Positions 52,546-64,000 of a stretch of DNA of 64,000 nt are shown piece after piece. Both the position numbers and the translations under genes were made by a program. The stretch is from Streptomyces sp. G44 (GTDB taxonomy: Bacteria > Actinomycetota > Actinomycetes > Streptomycetales > Streptomycetaceae): assembly GCF_016905445.1 (NCBI RefSeq), contig NZ_JAFEXF010000005.1, forward strand, positions 1 to 64,000. The letters are read 5' to 3'. Position 1 is the stretch's first letter; each line of letters begins with the position of its first letter. The notes beneath the pieces are model-generated. The model was not told the DNA's origin. It saw nothing but the letters and a program-made list of their open reading frames with translations, and did no database searches.

Positions 52546-52634
52546 CCACTTCAGGCTATTCGTCGCTTTGGCCCGATTCAGAGAAACTGCTCCGAATCGG
52601 CTTCTCAGTCTGAGAAAACAGCAGGTCGGGCAGT
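52546..52634 (+). promoter_or_regulatory. Leader of array F
   Basis: Read on the plus strand, CGATTCAGAGAAACTGCTC, GAATCGGCTTCTCAGTC and CAGCAGGTCGGGCAGT align with the reverse complement of the array A-E leaders (for example CGAATCAGCGAAAGTGCTC and CCGCAGGTCGAGAAGT of array D). It is therefore the same leader in inverted orientation. Confidence 0.8.
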
Positions 52635-53883
52635 GTGCTCCCCGCGCCTGCGGGGATGGTCCCATCGGCGTCCTCGCCCAGGGCAAGCCCGGCCGGTGCT
52701 CCCCGCGCCTGCGGGGATGGTCCCCGGGCCGGGGCCGTGGACATCACCCGCGACGTGTGCTCCCCGCGCCTGCGGGGATGGTCCCGACCCCGGAAAGGTC
52801 TTCCCCGACTTCCCCAAGTGCTCCCCGCGCCTGCGGGGATGGTCCGTGAAGACGCGCTCGGCGAGGCTCTTCGGGTAGGTGCTCCCCGCGCCTGCGGGGA
52901 TGGTCCCGGCCCCCAGTACGCCGCGAGTACGGTCCCCATGTGCTCCCCGCGCCTGCGGGGATGGTCCCGCACCGCCGAGCGGGTGCAGCTCGACGGACTT
53001 GTGCTCCCCGCGCCTGCGGGGATGGTCCCGCGCCGCTGCGCATGGCAGCCCGCAAGGACCTGTGCTCCCCGCGCCTGCGGGGATGGTCCCACGCACGTCT
53101 TCTTCTCCGACCACCTCGACACGTGCTCCCCGCGCCTGCGGGGATGGTCCCGCGCGCACCGCCTCCGCCCTCTTGGGCGCCTGGTGCTCCCCGCGCCTGC
53201 GGGGATGGTCCCGCGCCCACATCCTCTACGTCGTCCACCCCGACGTGCTCCCCGCGCCTGCGGGGATGGTCCCGCACCGCCACCGCCCCGCCCTCGACCA
53301 CCGGCGTGCTCCCCGCGCCTGCGGGGATGGTCCCGGCAGCGGCTTCGCCCTGGAGGTCTCCTTGCCGTGCTCCCCGCGCCTGCGGGGATGGTCCCGCCGG
53401 GTCGCCCCAGTAGATGTCGGTCAGCTGGTGCTCCCCGCGCCTGCGGGGATGGTCCCCAGTAACCGGCCGGGGGCGCCGGGGGCCGGGGGTGCTCCCCGCG
53501 CCTGCGGGGATGGTCCCACCCGCTGATCGGCTCCTGATTGGCAAGCCATGTGCTCCCCGCGCCTGCGGGGATGGTCCTCAGAACGCGGCCAAGAGCGGTG
53601 CGCAGACGCAGTGCTCCCCGCGCCTGCGGGGATGGTCCCCGGTGATCGACTCACGACCCGGCCCTCTAGGGGTGCTCCCCGCGCCTGCGGGGCTGGTCCC
53701 ATCAAGACCGGTGCTGATGACACCGTTGGCGGGTGCTCCCCGCGCCTGCGGGGATGGTCCCCGGTAGGCGTATCCGCGCATGGTCACGGTGTCGTGCTCC
53801 CCGCGCCTGCGGGGATGGTCCCTTTTTGACCTGCGGCTTTACAATTTTCGTTAGGTGCTCCCCGCGCCTGCGGGGATGGTCCC
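52635..53883 (+). CRISPR. CRISPR array F, type I-E, 21 repeats / 20 spacers
   Basis: Repeats GTGCTCCCCGCGCCTGC...GGGGATGGTCCC start at 52635 and recur every 61 bases to 53855, all spacers being 32 bases. Single changes occur at repeats 4, 16 and 18. It is transcribed on the plus strand, opposite to arrays A-E. A 32-base spacer at 53823-53854 is unusually A+T-rich. Confidence 0.98.
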
Positions 53884-53940
53884 GCTCGTAGAGGGCGGGG
53901 ATACGTCGCAGTGACGAACGAGGGAAGGGGAGAGGGGGCC

Positions 53941-54659: not shown

Positions 54660-56168
54660 GAATGACCGCCCGCACATTGGTGCCCGGTCGGCCAAAAGCA
54701 GGGCGGAGCGGATCGCGCCGTGGAGGTGGTAGGGCCACAGGGCGTAGGGGTCGTGGGTGACGATCGGGCGTTCGCTCAGGCGTCGGGCGGGGGCCTGGTG
54801 GGTGAGGCTGGCGGCGCGGCTGGCCAGGTCGAGGTCTAAGGCGTCCAGCAAGGAGACCGAACGCAGGACGTGGCGTTCGTCGCTGGTCAGGTCGGACAGG
54901 GTGCGGGCGATGAGCGCGGGGAAAGTGCAGTTGAAGTCGTCGGCGCTGGGGGTGGTGCCTGAGCGGCGGACCTTTAGGAAGCGGGCGACGGCCAGGTCCA
55001 GGTGGAGGGGCAGGCCGTGGGAGCGTGCGGTGATGACGGCGCGGATGCTCTGGTCGATCAGGGGCTGGCCGTCCTGGGTGAGGCGGCGGGCGAGGTAGTC
55101 GTCGCAGTCCTCGTCGGAGAAGTCGCCCACCAGATGCTGCCCGGCGCCGGTGTGCCCGCCGATCTGGGGCGGGGTATGGCCTGTCGGGGCGGCCAGACCG
55201 GGCCAGGCTGCGGGACCGGTCCAGTCGAGCTGGCCGTGCAGGGTCGGGTCGGCCCATTGCAGGCGGCTGCGCCCGCTGATGACGAAGAAGGCGTTCGGCA
55301 TGAGCCAGACCACGCGTTGCAGTAGGCGTTCCAGGTCGCGGTGGCGGTCGCCGGTGTCCTCGAAGGTGTCGAACAGGATCACCGGGACGAGGCGTTTCTT
55401 CGTCGGAAGGCGGCTGATCTCCCAGGCCAGCAGATGCGGGTAAAAGCTCAGTGCCTCCAGGTCGCAGGGCGCCTCCAGCAGGGCGACGGTCCGGGCGCAG
55501 CCGGCCAGTGCCTGTGCGCGCTCGCGCCGGTCCCGCAGCGCTTGTACGAGCGCCGTGGTGACCTGGCCGGCTGCGGAGCCCACCAGGCCGGGCAGCTGCA
55601 GCGCTCCGGCGACCTCGCTCACCGCGCCTTGCATCTGCTGCGGCAGCGGGGTGGAGAAGCGGCCCATCAGTCCGGTGCGGCGTACGTAGGCCTCGATCGG
55701 TTCGCCGGGGTGGACCTGTTCCCAGTACTGGCGCAGCGCCGCGTCGAAGGAGGGCAGAGGGCGGCCGATGGCTCCGGCGAGTGCGAGGCGGATGGTGAGG
55801 ATGACGCGTTCGAAGTCCGAGCCGGCCGACGCCGCGCGGGCCAGGTCGATGCGGATGGGCAGGAGCGTCTCGCCTGCCCAGGCCGGGCTGCCCCACTGGG
55901 TGGGCCGCTGCTCGGCGCCGGTGAGCGCGGCCTCGAGCTTGCGCAGCAGGGTGGTCTTGCCGACGCCGCCCACGCCGTGGAACACGATGAGGTTGGTGCG
56001 GGGCGCTTGAAGGTCTTCGACGTCGAAGGCGGGCGCCCTAATGTGCCGCAGGTGCTCATCCAGCGCGCGGGGAGACCAGGTCCCACTGGAGATGACAGTT
56101 GGTGAACGCCTCGTCGGCGTCGAAGCCGAAAGGGTCGTTCGAGCTGAACAGCGCACGCAGATCGGTCA
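54660..56168 (-). pseudogene. STAND-type ATPase, truncated and frameshifted
   Basis: ATG 56168 opens MTDLRALFSSNDPFGFDADE and AFTNCHLQWDLVS, then a one-base slip near 56067 leads to ALDEHLRHIRAPAFDVEDLQ and the Walker A block LIVFHGVGGVGKTTLLRKL. Further motor features are RLVPVILFDTFEDTGDRHRD and FFVISGRSRLQWADP. After YALWPYHLHGAIRSALLLA the sequence ends where the convergent gene begins, so the C-terminal sensor repeats are gone. STAND ATPases of this kind act as regulators or phage-defence sensors. This copy is broken. Confidence 0.75.
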
Positions 56169-56282
56169 TCGGCTACGGTCCCCCCAACGATGATCACTTG
56201 GCGTCAATCTACGCCGCACAACCGGCGGCCGGCACCATGGGGATGCAGGCAGACCGATAACCGCTGGTGGGACTGAACCAAG

Positions 56283-56651
56283 CTAGAGGTACTCACCGAC
56301 TGGGCATGTCCAGTCAGACGCTTCGCTGGGGTCTCCCCATACGGCTACGCCATCTACGATCCGTGGGGTCGCGGGCCGAGAGGTTCCCGGAACCACAGGC
56401 ACACCAACGTGGTAAATCTCGACAAATGCGTCTGGAAGCTTGTCTGCGAGAGTATAGAGAATATCGGCTTTGCCTTGTGAAACGTTGACCAGGAAACCGA
56501 CTCCCATTCCGTGCCGATCCTGCACAAGAACCTCTACATACCCCTCATCCTCTGAGTCGGTGTACGTCACCACCGGGTCTTCGATAGCTTGACCGCGAAG
56601 AAGGTCGTGCAGTACTAGGCGTGTCAATTCTTCTAGCTGTGACATCGTCAT
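56283..56651 (-). CDS. Hypothetical 122-residue cytosolic protein
   Basis: It starts at ATG 56651 (or 56645) and reads SQLEELTRLVLHDLLRGQAI, YVEVLVQDRHGMGVGFLVNV and VAVWGDPSEASDWTCPVGEY. It is acidic with no signal peptide or known domain. Its G+C content is lower than that of the cas genes. It lies beside a secreted protein gene on the same strand, so it may be an immunity-type partner, but this is speculative. Confidence 0.55.
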   Translation of the reverse strand: MTMSQLEELTRLVLHDLLRGQAIEDPVVTYTDSEDEGYVEVLVQDRHGMGVGFLVNVSQGKADILYTLADKLPDAFVEIYHVGVPVVPGTSRPATPRIVDGVAVWGDPSEASDWTCPVGEYL

Positions 56652-56679
56652 CCTGTCGATATGGCGGGTGAGTAGACGC

Positions 56680-56710
56680 TAGGGCGTGGCGGTCCAGCCG
56701 CCACGCCCTA
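56680..56710. terminator. 13-bp perfect hairpin
   Basis: TAGGGCGTGGCGG (56680-56692) and CCGCCACGCCCTA (56698-56710) are exact complements with loop TCCAG, followed on the plus strand by an A+T-rich stretch. It separates the two small genes. Confidence 0.65.
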
Positions 56711-56744
56711 AGTCTATTTTAAAGCTCGGAGTTCAGTGAAAATG

Positions 56745-57302
56745 TCACACCAGGGTGACTACAAAATCAAACGTGGTGTGGACATACCTCTTCCCGCGAG
56801 GGATGGGGAAGTTTTCATCGATGGTGAGCTTATAGCTTCCGGTCGAGACCTTGAAGGACGAGTGGACTGTGTAGGAAGCGGGAACTGAGGGATGGGAATC
56901 AGAGTAACCGAACTTCCGGCCATTCTTTGTTGCAAAAGCCTTCTCGTGCATAGGGCCTGTAGCCGGGGCTGAAATTTGCTTGTGAAGCTTGTAGCCCCAG
57001 GCGAAGTACATCCTGCGCGAATTGTAATGAACCTGACCGGTAAAGTGACCGCTCCTGTCATTGCCTCGATAGTCGGGATTCTGAGGCGTGAAGAAGTGCG
57101 TAGCTCCTATGCTCTTCGTTTTCGCCGTCTGCCCCTTTACGACTGACCGTATTTCGGAGTGCTCGGTCATCTTGATCACGTAGGACTTCGATTTTTGGGG
57201 TGACAAGTCCCCTTTATCGGATGCGGCTGTTGCCGGCATTGCGAGTGACGAAAGGATAGCGCCTGTCGCTACGGCTGCAAAGGCGACGCGTGCCCTGTTC
57301 AT
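56745..57302 (-). CDS. Secreted hypothetical protein
   Basis: This is a 185-residue protein from ATG 57302; earlier in-frame ATGs give an implausible N-terminus. MNRARVAFAAVATGAILSSL followed by AMPATAAS is a standard Sec signal peptide with an AxA cleavage site. The mature part is strand-rich (THFFTPQNPDYRGNDRSGHF, YTVHSSFKVSTGSYKLTIDE). Lower G+C content suggests acquisition. No domain is recognised. Confidence 0.7.
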   Translation of the reverse strand: MNRARVAFAAVATGAILSSLAMPATAASDKGDLSPQKSKSYVIKMTEHSEIRSVVKGQTAKTKSIGATHFFTPQNPDYRGNDRSGHFTGQVHYNSRRMYFAWGYKLHKQISAPATGPMHEKAFATKNGRKFGYSDSHPSVPASYTVHSSFKVSTGSYKLTIDENFPIPRGKRYVHTTFDFVVTLV

Positions 57303-57766
57303 GTACCCCCCTGTGAGAGTCCTCATTGAAACCTTAAGGGGGATATTAATGGCATATGCATGCATGATCAACATGACATAGATCACGACTTATGTTTATT
57401 TTTGTAGTAAAGTAGTTGGCCTTTGAAAGCTTCCTGCGGGGTTCCCGCGCTGTCTGCCTCAGCTGAGCCCGTCACGCCACGTTGCTCGGCGTTTCTTTCC
57501 CGTGCGCCGCACGAGCGGCGGCTCGCCGTCCCCGCCCTCGAATACCAGCTGCCCGCCGCACAGCATCAGACGACCGCCTTCCAGAACTGCCTCGGCCAGC
57601 GCGAGATATCTCGGCCGAAGCCCTCGCGAGCCTTGGGCAGTTGCCGCGGCTGCTCCAAGATCCCCGGCAGAGTCAAGCTGAAGGGCCAGGTCGGCCGCGC
57701 GGACGGCGCAGCCTGGGGACAGGGACAATGGCGCCTTTATGGCCCCGAGCGAGAAGGAAGAGCGAT
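57303..57766. other. A+T-rich promoter region and unassigned DNA
   Basis: Bases 57330-57415 are unusually A+T-rich and probably hold the promoter of the secreted-protein gene. Bases 57420-57766 have open frames on both strands but none that I can support as a gene. Confidence 0.35.
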
Positions 57767-58012
57767 TTGTCTGAGCACGTGAACCGCCAGGCCGCTGAGA
57801 AGCTGGTACAGCAGGTGAGCACCTGGTACTCCCAGCAGATCATCGCGGAGCGCCGGGCCCCGGCGCCCGATGCGCAGCGTCTGAAGCATCTGACCGACCT
57901 CCTGGCGGCCTGCGCCGCCGACCGGCAGGCACTTGAGGATGCCGAAGCCGATGAGATCGATGCGATCGCGGCCCGATACGCAGCCCGCGCCAAGGAGTTC
58001 GAGGGCCAGTAA
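57767..58012 (+). CDS. Small hypothetical helical protein
   Basis: This is an 81-residue protein from TTG 57767, chosen because GAAGGAAG lies 7 bases upstream; ATG 57728 is the alternative. It reads SEHVNRQAAEKLVQQVSTWY, SQQIIAERRAPAPDAQRLKH and EADEIDAIAARYAARAKEFE. It is a helical hairpin of a type common in Streptomyces accessory regions. The function is unknown. Confidence 0.55.
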   Translation: MSEHVNRQAAEKLVQQVSTWYSQQIIAERRAPAPDAQRLKHLTDLLAACAADRQALEDAEADEIDAIAARYAARAKEFEGQ

Positions 58013-58310
58013 CCGCCACCGGGTGCGGGCACGGGCAGCGGCACGTCGACAACGGCGTGGGCGAGCGCAGGCGGCTGCAGCTCGGCGGGCAGCAGCGGCC
58101 TGGCCAGCATGGCGATCTGGGCCAAGTCGGCCCGGTACTGCGGCAGCTCATGGTGGAGCCGGGTGAGGGTGGCGAAGAAGGCGGCGGCCTCGCCGGGTGT
58201 GTAGGGCCGCTGCTGCTCGGCCAGGAGCATCAGCTCGCCCACTGGCGCCACCCCCCAGGAACCGTTGGTGGTGCGGGTGTTGCGGTAGGCCGCGGTCAGA
58301 TCCCGGCGGA
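58013..58310 (-). pseudogene. Gene fragment truncated at both ends
   Basis: The minus frame reads SVIRRDLTAAYRNTRTTNGS, ELMLLAEQQRPYTPGEAAAF and FATLTRLHHELPQYRADLAQ. It has convincing coding character but no start and no sensible end. Its upstream side stops exactly where the second casA begins, marking a rearrangement junction near 58310. The family is not recognised. Confidence 0.45.
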
Positions 58311-59932
58311 TGACGGAGGTCGACGAACTCGGATGGCTTCAGGTCACCGCCTCGAAGGACCTGCCGCTGCGCGAGTACCTGCACCGCAGCCACGAACTCA
58401 CCGGCCTGCTCGGGGACCTGCCGACGGTGGCACCGGCGATCCGCTCGCAGGTCCTGCTTCCGGTCGTGCGTCACGCCCTGGCCGACACGCTCACCTATGA
58501 CACCTGGACCGCCACGCTGCAGGCCGGCCGTTTCTCCCCGGAGCAGCTCCGGGCGATCGACCGCTACCTCGATGAGCGTCTCGACCGGTTCCGGCTGTTC
58601 GACGAGGTACGGCCCTTCGGACAGGCCGCAGGCCTGAGCCACGCCAAAGGCGAGACGAAACCGTCATCGCTGCTGGTGCCGGTCATCGATTCCGGCAACA
58701 ACGTCCCCTTGTGGAGCGGGCGGACCGACGGGGACCCGCTACCGCTCACGCCGGCTGAGGCGGTGCGGTGGATGTTGCACGCACAGTGCTGGGACACCGC
58801 CGGGATCAAGGCCGCCGCAGTCAGCGATCCGCAGGCGAAAGCCGGAAAGACGGCGGGCAACCAGACGGGCCTTCTGGGTTCACTGGGTGTGGTCGAGGTG
58901 ATCGGGCGCACCGAGCTGGAGACCCTTTTGCTCAATCTTCCCTGCAATCCCCTGCCCGCGGGGGATCTGCCCCAGTGGGACCGTGAGCCGCAGAATCAGC
59001 TCTGGTCTTCCCGCCCGTGTACCGGAATCCTCCACCGCTGGACGTGGCCGTCCCGCCGCATCCGCCTCCTGCCCGAGCAGACGGAGTCGGGCGACCTCGT
59101 CGTCCGGCAGATCATCCTTGCCGCAGGCGACCGCTGCACCACCGCTCCCACTCCCGACACCGAGCCGCGGACCTGCTGGAGCAAGAAGACCGAAAAGAAG
59201 AAAGAATTTGTCTACCCGCGGCGGCACCGGCCCTCAGTCGCCGCATGGCGCGGGCTGGAAGCCCTGGTCACCCTGCACCGGGACGGCAGCAAGCACTTTG
59301 AAACCTCGCTGCTCCTGACCCAGGTCGCCGACGCCCTCGCAGACGAGGACCTGCCGGACGACTACCCCCTGCGGATCGCCCTGTCCGGCATCGAATACGG
59401 CACGCAATCCTCCATCGTCAAGGACGTCCTGGGGGACGGCATCCCATTGCCGGTTGCGGCTCTCGCCGCCGACAGCGACGTGCGGGAACACATCCTGAAA
59501 GTGGTCTTCCAGGCCGAGACGATCGCCCGGGCCGTTACCGGCCTGCACCAGCATCTGCTGCAGGCCGTCGGCGGGGAGGCGCCGCTCACCGGCAAAGGTG
59601 CCAGGGCAGGCGATCGCATCCTGCACACCATCGACCCCTACGTACGGCGTTTCTTGGCCGGGTGCCAGCGCGCACCGGACAGCGACCTGCTCACCCGCGC
59701 CCATCACGCCTACGAACAGGTCCTTGACCGGATCGCCCGCAAGGAGGCAGACAGCCTCCTGCGGTCGATGCCCAGCAAAGCGTTCACCGGTCGCACCCGT
59801 GAGAACACGGCCGGGAAGACCCTCGTCTTCCGGCAGGCCGAAGCGGAGCGGTTCTTCCACGCCGACCTGCGTAAAACGCTCACCTACCTCTACTCCGACA
59901 CCTCTGGCCACAAGGCGGAGGACGCCGCATGA
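58310..59932 (+). pseudogene. casA: CasA/Cse1 of second Cascade, 5'-truncated
   Basis: From ATG 58310 there are 540 residues: DELGWLQVTASKDLPLREYL, HRSHELTGLLGDLPTVAPAI, VRWMLHAQCWDTAGIKAAAV and LRIALSGIEYGTQSSIVKDV. Compared with the first CasA, the opening FDLxxRPWIxVL segment is missing, and the in-frame sequence upstream meets a TAG. There is no ribosome site. The rest is intact. It was probably cut by the rearrangement at 58310. Partial function cannot be excluded. Confidence 0.8.
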
Positions 59933-60525
59933 CCGACACCACCCCTGCCCCCACCGCCCCGGGCCCCGGTCCAAAACGCCGGCCCTGGTATTGGGAGGAC
60001 TACACCCCCCAGGGCACCAAAGCAGGGGAACTGCCCCCCGGTGGTGACCTGGCAGCCCTGCATCTGGGTCTCACCCTGGCCGCCGGCACCGCACCGCAGA
60101 TGTGGCGCTTCTACCGCACCCCTGTGGACGGCCGGCTCGCCGGCCGTGGCGAAGTGAGCGACGACCAGGCGGCCGAGCACATGACGCTCGCTCTGTTCGC
60201 CATGCACCAGCAGTCCAAGACCACGCTTATGCACCACAGCGGCATCCGCTTCGGTACCGCCGTACGCGCCCTGCACGAGCGGTTCAGCACCGAGGCTGTC
60301 GCCAGCCGCATGTCCGCCGCCGCCCAGGCCCGCAGCCAGAACGCGGTCTTCTTCCACCTGCGCGGACTGCTCAGCCAGCTCTCCGTGATCTCCCAGCCAA
60401 TCGACTACACCCAGCTCCTCGCCGACCTCAAGGCGTGGCCCTGGCCCGACGGCCGCTCCCGCGTCATCCGTTCGTGGGGCAGCGACTACCACGCCTACGT
60501 CAAAGAGGACCCCGTCCGCCCCTGA
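59929..60525 (+). CDS. casB: CasB/Cse2 of second Cascade
   Basis: This is a 198-residue protein from ATG 59929 (ATGA overlap). After a 25-residue Pro-rich start it reads DLAALHLGLTLAAGTAPQMW, HMTLALFAMHQQSKTTLMHH and SWGSDYHAYVKEDP at the end, paralleling LHQQSRGAAMHRPG and WGRSYHSYR of the first CasB. It is clearly diverged from that copy. Confidence 0.88.
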   Translation: MTDTTPAPTAPGPGPKRRPWYWEDYTPQGTKAGELPPGGDLAALHLGLTLAAGTAPQMWRFYRTPVDGRLAGRGEVSDDQAAEHMTLALFAMHQQSKTTLMHHSGIRFGTAVRALHERFSTEAVASRMSAAAQARSQNAVFFHLRGLLSQLSVISQPIDYTQLLADLKAWPWPDGRSRVIRSWGSDYHAYVKEDPVRP

Positions 60526-60582
60526 CCGCCCCCAGCACAGCAGCACCCCACCCGACCCGACCACTGCGCAAGGAAAATGAGC

Positions 60583-61749
60583 ATGTCCATCACGCTGATC
60601 CGCCGCGCCTTCATTGACATCCACATCCTGCAAACCACCCCGCCCGCCAACCTCAACCGGGACGACGCCGGCAGCCCCAAGGAAGCCATCTACGGCGGTG
60701 TCCGACGCCCCCGCGCCTCATCCCAGGCCTGGAAGCGCGCTACCCGCATGGCCTTCACCACACTCGGCATCAACGCCGACGACCTCGGCACCCGCACCAA
60801 GCGCATCGCCGCGGACCTCGCCGACCGGCTCGCCGCACGCACCGGCCTGAAGGAGGAGCCTGCCGCCCGCGTCGCAGCCGCCATGCTCATCCCGCTCGGC
60901 GTGACCGCTTCGACCAAAAAGGCCGCCGAGACCGCCTACCTCCTGTTCTACGGACAGCGGCAGCTCGAGCAGCTCGTCGACCTCGTCGCCGACCGGGCGC
61001 ACACCCTTGCCGGGCTGGAGGACAAGCTGCTCAAGGACGAACTGAAGGGTCTCGACGTCCACAATGCCATCACCACAGGGCATCCCATCGATGTCGCCCT
61101 TCTCGGCCGCATGGTCGCCGACGTCCCCGGCATTAATGTCGACGCCGCCTGCCAGGTCGCCCGCGCCCTGGCCACGCACGCCGCCGAGCTGGAATTCGAC
61201 TGGTACACCGCCGTCGACGACCGCAACGAAAAATCAGAGACAGGCGCCGGAATGATGGGCCGCATCGGCTTCAACTCCGCCACCTTCTACCGCTACGCCA
61301 CCGTCGGCCTCCACCAGCTCAACGCGAACCTCAGCAACCCCGTCAAGGCCATCGAGACGGCGGCCGCCTTCGTCCAGGCGTTCACCCGCTCCATGCCCGC
61401 CGGCTACGGCAACTCCTTCGGACACCGCACCATGCCCCAGCTCGTCGCCCTCAACCTGCGCACCGACCAGCCCGTCAACCTGGTCACCGCCTTCGAAAAG
61501 CCCGTCACCACCCGTACCGGCGGTTACGCCGCGCCCTCCGCACGCGCTCTCGCCCGCGAATACCAGACCATCGCCGCACAGTGGGGCGCCCCCGCGCTGT
61601 GGACCGGCATCACCCACAACTTCACCGACGACCCCGACACCACCACCGCACTCAGTGCCGCATTCGGTGAACCGCAGGCATTCCCCGCCCTCCTTGACCA
61701 GCTCACCGACCGCCTGCGCACCCTCGTCCAGGACCAGGAGACCGCGTGA
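60583..61749 (+). CDS. cas7: Cas7e of second Cascade
   Basis: This is a 388-residue protein. ATG 60583 gives the better spacing to AAGGA; ATG 60577 is possible. It reads AFIDIHILQTTPPANLNRDD, EAIYGGVRRPRASSQAWKRA, HPIDVALLGRMVADVPGINV and GAGMMGRIGFNSATFYRYAT, each matching the first Cas7 block by block. The frame is intact, so selection may still act on it. Confidence 0.93.
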   Translation: MSITLIRRAFIDIHILQTTPPANLNRDDAGSPKEAIYGGVRRPRASSQAWKRATRMAFTTLGINADDLGTRTKRIAADLADRLAARTGLKEEPAARVAAAMLIPLGVTASTKKAAETAYLLFYGQRQLEQLVDLVADRAHTLAGLEDKLLKDELKGLDVHNAITTGHPIDVALLGRMVADVPGINVDAACQVARALATHAAELEFDWYTAVDDRNEKSETGAGMMGRIGFNSATFYRYATVGLHQLNANLSNPVKAIETAAAFVQAFTRSMPAGYGNSFGHRTMPQLVALNLRTDQPVNLVTAFEKPVTTRTGGYAAPSARALAREYQTIAAQWGAPALWTGITHNFTDDPDTTTALSAAFGEPQAFPALLDQLTDRLRTLVQDQETA

Positions 61750-62547
61750 ACACCCGCACCCTCCTGCTGCGCCTGGCCGCCCCTGTGCAGGCATGGGGAG
61801 ACCACCGTGGCCAGGTCGAACGCCGCCACACGCAGCCCCTACCCACCAAATCCGGGGTGATCGGCCTGCTGGCCGCCGCCCTCGGCCATGAACGGGATAC
61901 CCCCCTCGGGGACCTCGCCCACCTCCAGATGGGTGTCCGAGTCGACCTCCCCGGCACCCTCCTGCGCGATTTCCACATCGCCTCGGATTACCGCGGCAAG
62001 CCCCTGCCCGCAGCAAAGGTCAACGCCAAAGGCATCCAGACCGCCACTTCACCGCCCAAGTACACCCTTACCTCCGAGCGCTTCTACCTCCAGGACGCCA
62101 CCTTCCTCGTCGCCCTCGAAGGACCCACCCAACGCATCGAAGATGCCGCTGCGGCCGTAGCGAACCCCGTCTACCCACTCAGCCTCGGCCGTCGATCCTG
62201 CCCACCCACCTTTCCCTTGCGCCTGTGCGTGGCCAACCTGCCCCTGGACGAGGCGCTCGCTCGCCAGCCCTGGCTCGCTTCGCCGTACGCCCGCAACGTC
62301 TGGTCACACCAGCACGGTGAAAAGAAGCCCGCAAAGCCCCCCCATCATCCACCTGCACGCCGAGGTCGAGGACGAGGCCGGTGACATCCGCCGAACCGAC
62401 CAGCCCTTTACCTCGCAAACCAGCACCACCCGCCACACCACCCGGCGCGTACGCGTCCTTCAGATCCCCATCGCCACCGGATGGGACCCCGAGCCTGACA
62501 CCGACCAGCAGAGCGGCCATGACCCGCTCGCCCTCCTCGGATGGTGA
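61746..62547 (+). pseudogene. cas5: Cas5e of second Cascade, frameshifted at a C7 run
   Basis: ATG 61746 opens LLLRLAAPVQAWGDHRGQVE and continues through TQPLPTKSGVIGLLAAALG, TLLRDFHIASDYRGKP and LGRRSCPPTFPLRLC. At CCCCCCC (about 62336-62342) the frame changes; the expected ending (IIHLHAEVEDEAGDIRRTDQ, VRVLQIPIATGWDPEPDTD) follows in another frame to TGA 62547. The short frame ends at 62384 with a basic tail. The indel may be real or a homopolymer error. Confidence 0.85.
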
Positions 62548-63386
62548 CCCGCCCCATGGCCTACCTCTCCCGCATCCCCATCGCCCCCCTGCGCGAAGGC
62601 GCACGCCGCTTCCTGAAATCCCCCCAGGCCATGCACGCCGCCGTCCAAGGTGCTGTCGCCTGGCACACCGAACCCGGCCGAACCCTGTGGCGCGTCGACG
62701 CCGACACCCCCCACCGCCCCTACCTGTACGCCGTCACCCAAATCCAGCCAGACTGGACACACCTGACTGAACAGGCCGGATGGCTCATCGATGACCCCAG
62801 CGTGAAACCCGCAATCGCCGACTACACGCCTCTGCTGGCCCAACTGGCAGCCGGGCAAGAGTACGCCTTCCGTCTCACGGCCTCACCCGTCCAGAACACC
62901 AAAACACCGCACAAAATGAGCCCCAACCAGATGAGAATCGCCGCAGAAGCCGAAGCACAAGACAAGCGCCGACGCGGCTTCCGCCTCGGACAGCACACAG
63001 CCAAGCACCAGCTCGCATGGCTGACCAACAAGGCCAGAAAGCACGGCTTCGAACTGCGTGAACTCCCCGCCCAGGCGCCTGCAGTGCCCAGCATCCTCCC
63101 GCTCATCGATCCGCCAGACGGCAACCTTGAGACCGCCTTGGACGCCAGTGTCACCAGCTCCGAGCGGCGCGTCTTCAGCAAGACGGACACCGAGGACGGG
63201 CAACCCGTCCTCAAGGACGGGAAGCCAGTCAGACGTCAGGTCACCGTCCAGACCGCCACCTTCAGCGGCACCCTCCGGGTCACCGAGCCTGTAGATCTCG
63301 CCCGGACGCTCCTCTCTGGCATGGGGCCAGCTAAAGCCTACGGATGCGGTCTCCTCACCCTCGCCCCGCTTCCTGAGAAGGCATGA
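62544..63386 (+). CDS. cas6: Cas6e of second Cascade
   Basis: It is about 280 residues; GTG 62544 overlaps the cas5 stop, and ATG 62556 is an alternative. It reads MAYLSRIPIAPLREGARRFL with the catalytic His at residue 27 of that form (KSPQAMHAAVQGAV) and the Gly-rich loop SGMGPAKAYGCGLLTLAP. A Lys/Gln-rich insertion (KTPHKMSPNQMRIAAEAEAQ) is not in the first Cas6. The protein looks functional. Confidence 0.9.
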   Translation: MTRPMAYLSRIPIAPLREGARRFLKSPQAMHAAVQGAVAWHTEPGRTLWRVDADTPHRPYLYAVTQIQPDWTHLTEQAGWLIDDPSVKPAIADYTPLLAQLAAGQEYAFRLTASPVQNTKTPHKMSPNQMRIAAEAEAQDKRRRGFRLGQHTAKHQLAWLTNKARKHGFELRELPAQAPAVPSILPLIDPPDGNLETALDASVTSSERRVFSKTDTEDGQPVLKDGKPVRRQVTVQTATFSGTLRVTEPVDLARTLLSGMGPAKAYGCGLLTLAPLPEKA

Positions 63387-63597
63387 GAATCCATGCCCGA
63401 CGGGGAGGGGAAGGCTGTTCCTCAGGAGCTGCACCGCCGCATCACCTTGTCTCCAGCATCCCGCCAATAGAAGCCGCGACCTGGCCGATAAGGCACTCGT
63501 TCGGGTCATGCCGGAACGCCAACGCCAGCCTGGCAGCAACCCAACCCGGGCCGCAGGTCGACTATCACAGTTACCTTTTTCGTGGCTCCGCAATGGG

Positions 63598-63680
63598 GCC
63601 TCCGGCCTTTGGGTCCGGCATGACTTCCCCCCCCCCTTGTTGTTGATGAATTGGGGGGTGGTGTCACCGGGTCCGGAGGC
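63598..63680 (+). ncRNA. Candidate bridge-RNA region of the IS110 element
   Basis: GCCTCCGG (63598-63605) and CCGGAGGC (63673-63680) can pair, enclosing a C10 run (63627-63636) facing G6 (63653-63658). This nested structure lies in the non-coding left end upstream of the transposase, where IS110-group elements encode their bridge RNA. Target- and donor-binding loops are not identified. Confidence 0.35.
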
Positions 63681-63790
63681 ATCGACGGACCGCTGATGAG
63701 GGGCTTGAGCACCGGCTTCACCCAGGCCGGAAGAGCTCTCCGTAACGTGGATGTGGCAGCTCGGTGCCGAGGCGAGGCCGGACGAAAGGC

Positions 63791-64000
63791 GTGAGCGGAG
63801 GGGGCCTGCACGTGATCGACACCGGCGACATCGACGTCTTCCTCGGTCTGGACGTCGGCAAGGGCGAACACCACGCCACCGCCGTCACCCCGGCCGGGAA
63901 GAAGGCGTTCGACAAGCGCCTGCCCAACACCGAACCCAAGCTCCGAAAGCTGTTCGTCAAGCACGGGACGGTGCTGGTCGTGGTCGACCAGCCGGCCTCG
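63791..64000 (+). CDS. IS110-family transposase, N-terminal part (cut by window edge)
   Basis: The frame opens at GTG 63791 (or GTG 63812) and reads VIDTGDIDVFLGLDVGKGEH, HATAVTPAGKKAFDKRLPN and VLVVVDQPAS at the window edge. The D-V-G-K start with a following DQPAS is the RuvC-like DEDD domain of IS110 transposases, such as those of Streptomyces. The serine-containing C-terminal domain is outside the window. Confidence 0.85.
   Translation, partial: MSGGGLHVIDTGDIDVFLGLDVGKGEHHATAVTPAGKKAFDKRLPNTEPKLRKLFVKHGTVLVVVDQPAS

Follow-up and report, generated by a model that had tools for sequence, protein, structure and literature searches.

The closest described system to the locus reported here is that of IS621 and its orthologues, elements of the IS110 group with a bridge RNA (Durrant 2024, PMC11208160; Hiraizumi 2024, PMC11208158), and according to the same two papers IS621 forms a promoter at its circle junction. 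ISEc21, also of the IS110 type, has a seekRNA (Siddiquee 2024, PMC11187229). It is very probable that the non-coding left end of an IS110 element in Streptomyces sp. G44 encodes a bridge RNA as well, with a cycle that we read by analogy with IS621. As far as the published accounts describe IS621, several features set the present element apart from it: the core appears to be AC in the donor and CC in the target, as compared to CT, the target guides are homopolymers that in most copies are complementary to each other, and a passenger stretch of 425 nt lies before the right end. The element resembles ISEc21, as that element is described, in its upstream non-coding RNA and in that the bottom-strand match comes before the top-strand match, but the target is another one, and the mature ISEc21 RNA, at 74 nt, is much shorter than the RNA predicted here.

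The window, by which we mean the whole stretch of 64,000 nucleotides that was analysed, is bases 1-64000 of a 138,096-base contig in a genome of 8.37 Mb. The IS110 element runs from 63570 (GTTACC) to contig position 65460 (GGGGCAC), and its order is a left end at 63570-63811, the recombinase gene to 65011, an antisense ankyrin-repeat frame at 65008-65469, and the right end. The initial annotation had called the element terminal, but the contig continues and the element is cut only by the window edge at 64000. To the left of the element the window contains a CRISPR array and type I-E genes (52630-53884 and 58310-63386), the array with 21 repeats at 61-nt spacing and the genes being cse1, cse2, cas7 (CT1975), cas5 and cas6e. 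The cas5e gene (61746-62547) is broken up into two frames that overlap, close to a C7 run at 62337-62343, either by a frameshift or by a sequencing error. On the other side, two larger frames after the IS110 element had no Pfam match, and no direct repeats of at least 22 nt were found in L003:5400-10000.

A DNA search gave matches in 364 of 392 genomes of the same genus. Most of the long matches listed begin at query position 191/192, that is 63570/63571, and a few of those listed (G109, G243, G054 and G090) begin at query 119-124 because they share the flank of a second element, ISX, which is described below. In one genome two copies lie head to tail (L006), giving a junction of a right end with a left end. 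The homology limits and this tandem copy placed both ends of the element, at 63570 and at contig 65460, which the initial annotation had asked for as a check; its region of 63560-63811 was the right one, while its start was too early, as the left end proper, on the forward strand, begins at 63570. With 242 nt this is a long non-coding left end, as in the IS110 family. From 174 gathered loci, including 80 named loci and 60 further stretches, we obtained 151 distinct copies with at least 700 matched bases. The guides could be scored in 110 of these; the other 41 were dropped before scoring because of a partial left end or no right end found, an unusual left-end start, or a missed anchor pattern. 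A second copy in the genome of the window copy (L002/L004, in G000:C33) is 76% identical and has little sequence between the recombinase and the right end; as the recombinase frame is not the longest one in it, its recombinase gene looks disrupted.

The recombinase gene starts with GTG at 63812, or at 63764 in the same frame, and continues on the forward strand through 64000 to contig 65011, encoding 399 aa. It has the DEDD (RuvC-like) and Transposase_20 domains of the IS110 family (Pfam DEDD_Tnp_IS110, 4.2e-47; Transposase_20, 9.1e-24) and matches the NCBIfam model for IS110 RNA-guided transposases (NF033542, 1e-67), so that the candidate RNA region does lie just upstream of a DEDD transposase, as first annotated. 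The serine of the S-G-S/T-S motif was invariant across 14 aligned recombinases. The protein is related to that of IS621 (8wt6), but it is longer than the 328-aa chain of the latter, and phmmer and a profile search aligned the two in the C-terminal half only.

A covariance model was built from 23 relatives, each at most 86% identical to the window element, which was itself held out. It found the bridge RNA at 63582-63776 on the forward strand, with the structured part at about 63584-63768, at 170.6 bits and an E-value of 1.8e-44, which is rough, the model having been quickly calibrated; the next-best match in the window had an E-value of 0.08. A covariance search had been proposed as the check on this region, and it was the model of more distant relatives that succeeded, while an Rfam scan of 55000-64000 with E up to 1 gave no match; Rfam may hold no model of IS110 bridge RNAs. 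The single-sequence fold of the region is ordinary (z -1.63), with 14 of 200 shuffles folding at least as well.

The structure follows the order of a bridge RNA, with a 5' stem-loop, a target-binding loop and a donor-binding loop within the left end, all on the forward strand. The 5' stem-loop (63584-63600) has 6 pairs, 4 of them with changes on both sides, and the target-binding loop (63603-63684) is closed by a helix of 63603-63624 with 63663-63684, 20 pairs, 6 of them with changes on both sides. Together these 26 pairs were 96.2% paired over 33 relatives, 10 pairs showing changes on both sides; no shuffle out of 500 was as high on any of five measures, and the helices were far above slid registers. 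The donor-binding loop (63678-63768) has a basal helix of 63678-63685 with 63761-63768 that was 98.3% paired over 30 relatives, with 20 cells changed on both sides. None of 500 shuffles reached it in these cells, in the covariation score or in the percentage paired. For pairs changed on both sides and for further pair types, the two remaining measures, the helix was not above shuffles (127/500 and 280/500). The GGC at 63678-63680 falls in both the target-loop and the donor-loop helix.

The nested complementary segments on which the first interpretation was built are present, GCCTCCGG at 63598-63605, CCGGAGGC at 63673-63680, C10 at 63627-63636 and G6 at 63653-63658, but they do not pair in the way that was assumed. 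The conserved partner of CCGGAGGC is GCCTTTGG at 63605-63612, and the pairing with GCCTCCGG is shifted 7 nt from this helix. That register was 83.7% paired and not above shuffles on four of five measures (391/500 for the percentage paired), while 24 of 500 shuffles reached it on the fifth, pairs changed on both sides. A helix of the C-run with the G-run showed no excess on any measure (329/500 shuffles for the percentage paired), and instead of a nested stem the two runs are the left and right target guides for C-tract targets. It could be argued that the left end does no more than provide the transposase gene with a structured 5' leader or attenuator, whose hairpin is formed by the C-run and G-run, since it lies just upstream of that gene and C10 and G6 are complementary and paired in the minimum-energy structure of the single sequence. 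We find this very unlikely: the pairing does not go beyond that of shuffles, in 14 of the 110 copies A-runs face the C-run and match the flank instead, and covariation with the right end and with the outer flanks is not what one would expect of a leader.

The two guides of the donor loop match the ends of the element itself. The left donor guide, AGGGGC at 63699-63704 (forward strand, as are all guides), is identical to the AGGGGC of the right end, and 103 of the 110 copies have a guide identical to their own right end (AGGGGC with AGGGGC in 90, AGAGGC with AGAGGC in 10, AGGGAC with AGGGAC in 3). The remaining 7, AGAGGT with AGAGGC, differ at one position that allows U-G wobble, which makes the guide compatible in 110/110. 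The right donor guide, CGTAACGTG at 63741-63749, is complementary to the inferred circle junction CAC/GTTAC, and in 104 of the 110 copies it agrees with the bases at which the left end begins (CGTAACG with GTTAC in 61, CGTAATG with ATTAC in 37, CATAACG with GTTAT in 6), the other 6 having a mismatch. Over the 110 copies, at guide positions that were located with patterns written after viewing the sequences, the left donor guide had 653 matched nt as compared to a shuffled mean of 618.4, and the right donor guide 543 as compared to 481.8, with 0/10000 shuffles doing as well in either case.

The guides of the target loop match the DNA outside the element. The right target guide, G6, is complementary to the right flank CCCCCC of the window copy (CACCCCCCCC), and the combinations of guide and right flank in the family were G6 with C6 in 77 copies, AAAAGG with CCTTTT in 9, AAAAAG with CTTTTT in 4 and AAAGGG with CCCTTT in 1; the other 19 of the 110 are C-rich, 18 with a mismatch and 1 cut by a contig end. 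The matched total was 636 nt, the shuffled mean 535.6, and 0/10000 shuffles reached it. For the left target guide, C10, the five ISX-flanked copies were dropped, and over the other 105 it had 680 matched nt as compared to 642.8 (0/2000 shuffles); where the C-runs are below 6 (34 copies) the numbers were 209 and 187.0 (0/5000). All these tests had the same outcome with representatives at 97% identity (92 copies, or 87 and 28). In the majority of copies, with their C-tracts, the target guides are of low complexity, and therefore it is mainly the A-run clade and the variants of the left guide that are informative on the target. All 14 copies with an A-run right guide match 6/6 flank bases (84/84), the flank being the matching T-run, and within these copies alone 4 of 10000 shuffles do as well. 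The comparison of loops with target and donor that was first suggested thus holds family-wide and for the right flank of the window copy, but not for the left target of the window copy, whose flank has been replaced. The GTG at 63658-63660, which follows the right guide in the target loop, is complementary to the CAC of the right end (contig 65458-65460) and conserved in most rows of alignments A1/A4; by analogy with IS621 (as described in PMC11208158) we propose that it may be a handshake guide.

Natural empty sites were available for a subclade with A-run guides. The four copies L158, L159, L161 and L163, which are those with this left flank and both ends, all interrupt a transposase gene of the IS4/5 type at a conserved stretch; of the four target-gene frames tested, three had Pfam DUF4096 (IS4/5 family) and the fourth DDE_Tnp_1. 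The target GACCTGNNNGTTCGCC..TTTTNGC was found without insertion in 36 of 199 genomes, and the joined flanks of L159 and L161 (GACCTGCAAGTTCGCCCCCTTTTTAGC), L158 (C6T4) and L163 (C5T6) are identical to such empty sites over 27 nt. This implies that the element enters the target behind a C and duplicates nothing of it past that C, as in the IS110 family. The left flank ends in a C-run in most copies, and the right end is usually CAC, in some copies CCC, followed by the target. The left junction reads CC/GTTACC, the element ends in CAC on its right, and the empty sites put the join behind a C. The CT core of the IS621 orthologue group is not seen here, and we read the core as CC in the target and AC in the donor. 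For L096 the joined flanks give an open ABC-ATPase-like frame, but there was no exact empty site among the 20 uninterrupted homologues aligned, of which 17 are gapped by 3 nt at the site or close to it, 1 is gapped by 5 nt and 2 are ungapped; the C-run is absent from all of them. It was also possible to observe copies inserted in other copies. L037 lies in the C-run of the bridge-RNA gene of another copy, and L032 lies in the other direction, beside the G-run sequence of another copy's bridge-RNA gene; both would be expected if the guide DNA were itself to resemble the target.

The copies are related, which the shuffles ignore, and several of the A-run copies lie in the same kind of host gene. 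An explanation of the association between guides and flanks can therefore be that the two were copied together by shared ancestry, and not selected to pair. We give this very little credence, since the target flanks are host DNA and differ beyond the guide-length match in most copies, and since the genomes mentioned above have the target of L158, L159, L161 and L163 with no element in it. Furthermore, in the tree of the recombinase genes the class of the right target guide changed 4 times, and all 4 changes share their branch with a change in the class of the flank. Positions 3 and 5 of the left donor guide change alongside the right end, in 3/3 and 1/1 cases, and the right donor guide is in partial agreement, base 1 having 2 guide and 5 DNA changes, of which 2 are shared, and base 5 having 2 and 3, with 1 shared. 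These tree counts, which covered the right target guide and the two donor guides, repair the neglect of relatedness only partly.

When the two ends are joined computationally, as they would be in a circle, a promoter-like motif appears. TTGAYN-N18-TANNNT spans the join of right and left end in 116 of the 119 copies with both ends, and in the window copy the proposed -10 box is TACCTT at 63572-63577, forward strand, and the -35 box is TTGACC in the right end (contig 65439-65444). This is as expected for a junction promoter of the kind described for IS621, and the sequences thus suggest one here. Transcription, binding, catalysis and the exact core we infer by analogy with IS621. The element would excise as a circle in which the right end (GGGGCAC) is joined to the left end (GTTACC), and the junction would build the promoter TTGACC-N18-TACCTT, transcribing the RNA from about 63584. 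The recombinase would bind this bridge RNA, whose second loop, with AGGGGC as left and CGTAACGTG as right donor guide, would pair with the circle junction, while the first loop, with C10 as left and G6 as right target guide, would pair with both strands of a C-tract target. The strands would then be exchanged after the C of the core, AC in the donor and CC in the target.

The left flank of the window copy (ggtcgactatcaca) has no C-run, and near-identical flanks were observed in L009, L124, L150, L153 and L154, where they form the tip of ISX, an element of 1.37-1.38 kb that lies in the opposite orientation. We considered it as the copy's own target and rejected this, as the flank is a remnant of ISX. 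The remnant is 72 nt (63498-63569, reverse strand), the left-end tip of a second IS110-type element, and is 98.6% identical over 74 columns to the stretch that ends at the IS110 left end in L177/L178; it breaks off within what would be the left target guide of ISX. There was no other significant ISX match in the source genome, the next best having an E-value of 0.018. Because of this replacement the left target of the window copy cannot be read. The right flank, from the C-run onward (contig 65461 onward; L003:5461-5640), belongs to the inner part of a gene of which G035 has an unbroken version (L184); the identity is 74%, counted from the base that follows CAC, and L184 lacks the same C-run. 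The part of the gene left of the site had no match in the window or in the surrounding 10 kb (L003). Among 61 genomes searched with each flank, where the right flank was matched in 18 and the left flank in 16, there was no exact empty site of the window locus, and the left-flank matches that were checked (L187-L191) are only stretches within and just after the end of cas6e.

The ISX remnant and the missing 5' part of the gene suggest that ISX inserted at the window copy's left end, and that most of it was later lost in a deletion or rearrangement, along with the left target and the 5' portion of the gene on the right. With the left target lost, precise excision of this copy is probably no longer possible. 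The chances seem about even that the window copy is a relic, which encodes the RNA but cannot excise and has no left target. Its left flank is the truncated tip of ISX and not C-rich, the 5' portion of the gene interrupted on its right was not found in the window or in the 10 kb surrounding the element, and the right flank still matches the right guide. Against this, the recombinase frame, the RNA, the donor guides and the right end are all intact at the sequence level, and the copy could act in trans or use another partner site. The relic reading is compatible with a left end that encodes a bridge RNA; the two do not exclude each other.

ISX elements of about 1.38 kb were observed at L177/L178, L175, L176 and L179, and the ISX recombinase is of the IS110 type (Pfam Transposase_20, 3e-22; DEDD_Tnp_IS110, 8.5e-13). 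ISX, which we observed in L175-L179 and L192-L203, has matches in 88 of 246 genomes. We read 18 distinct ISX left ends, from the best-match loci and L175-L179, and 15 of them abut a left end of the IS110 family of the window; in L192, L197 and L203 the adjoining left end consists of about its first 20-35 bases only. Of the other three, one ISX seems to have a further ISX as its site. The sequence of ISX at the guide position is AAGGTAAC, AACGGTAAT, AAGATAAC, AACATAAC or a close variant of these, and it matches the left end next to it: in the 15 cases 110 of 120 bases agree as compared to 93.9 expected (0/10000 shuffles), and with the 11 unique guides 80 of 88 as compared to 70.0 (2/10000). IS4321 and IS5075 of the IS1111 family reportedly target the terminal inverted repeats of the Tn21 family, as Partridge and Hall are said to have described in 2003. 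Like these, ISX appears to target the end of another mobile element, but what it adjoins is the left end of IS110 elements, and the guide-like stretch of ISX lies in its own left end, upstream of its recombinase gene.

The stretch between the recombinase stop and the right end is at least 138 nt in 68 of 134 copies and less than 50 nt in the other 66. The count of 68 includes two copies (gap 270) that result from an alignment artefact, the frame there being the recombinase's own tail. The longest passenger frames cluster into 16 groups, one of them being this artefact, and the larger groups are antisense. Variable and mostly antisense passenger genes were observed in L003, L010, L012, L015, L026, L045, L073, L113 and L171. 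Among ten representatives, the Pfam matches above cut-off were to ankyrin repeats, Imm32, DUF6881, a bacterial PH domain and HEAT repeats; four had no match up to E 1 and one had a match only below cut-off. Nothing was above the NCBIfam cut-offs for the passenger proteins. The passenger of the window copy is of the ankyrin type and antisense, and lies outside the window (contig 65008-65469; L003:5008-5469). Its first codons are in or beyond the right end, and the real start is therefore probably further in.

The locus is a new example of the known IS110 bridge-RNA mechanism, and what is unusual is that guides are aimed at other insertion sequences and that the passenger slot is variable. Among the open-access titles and starts of abstracts that were listed, none named a Streptomyces bridge RNA with C-tract guides or an IS110 guide aimed at an IS110 left end. 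We somewhat favour a wider reading, in which these are RNA-guided insertion sequences that live on each other: C-tract guides would land in the guide DNA of their kin, one subclade would have been re-aimed at an IS4/5-type transposase gene, and the ISX guide would track the changing IS110 left end, with an exchangeable passenger slot in addition. The family is an actinobacterial IS110 lineage of high GC content for which the ends are mapped, a core is proposed, the four guides are placed and four copies have exact empty sites, which makes a bridge recombinase with an AC/CC core directly testable. The natural re-aiming of the right target guide, to the targets C6, C2T4, CT5 and C3T3, provides ready-made controls for reprogramming. 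If the reading of ISX is true, it would be an RNA-guided element specialised on another one, and a clean setting in which to study the co-evolution of guide and target.
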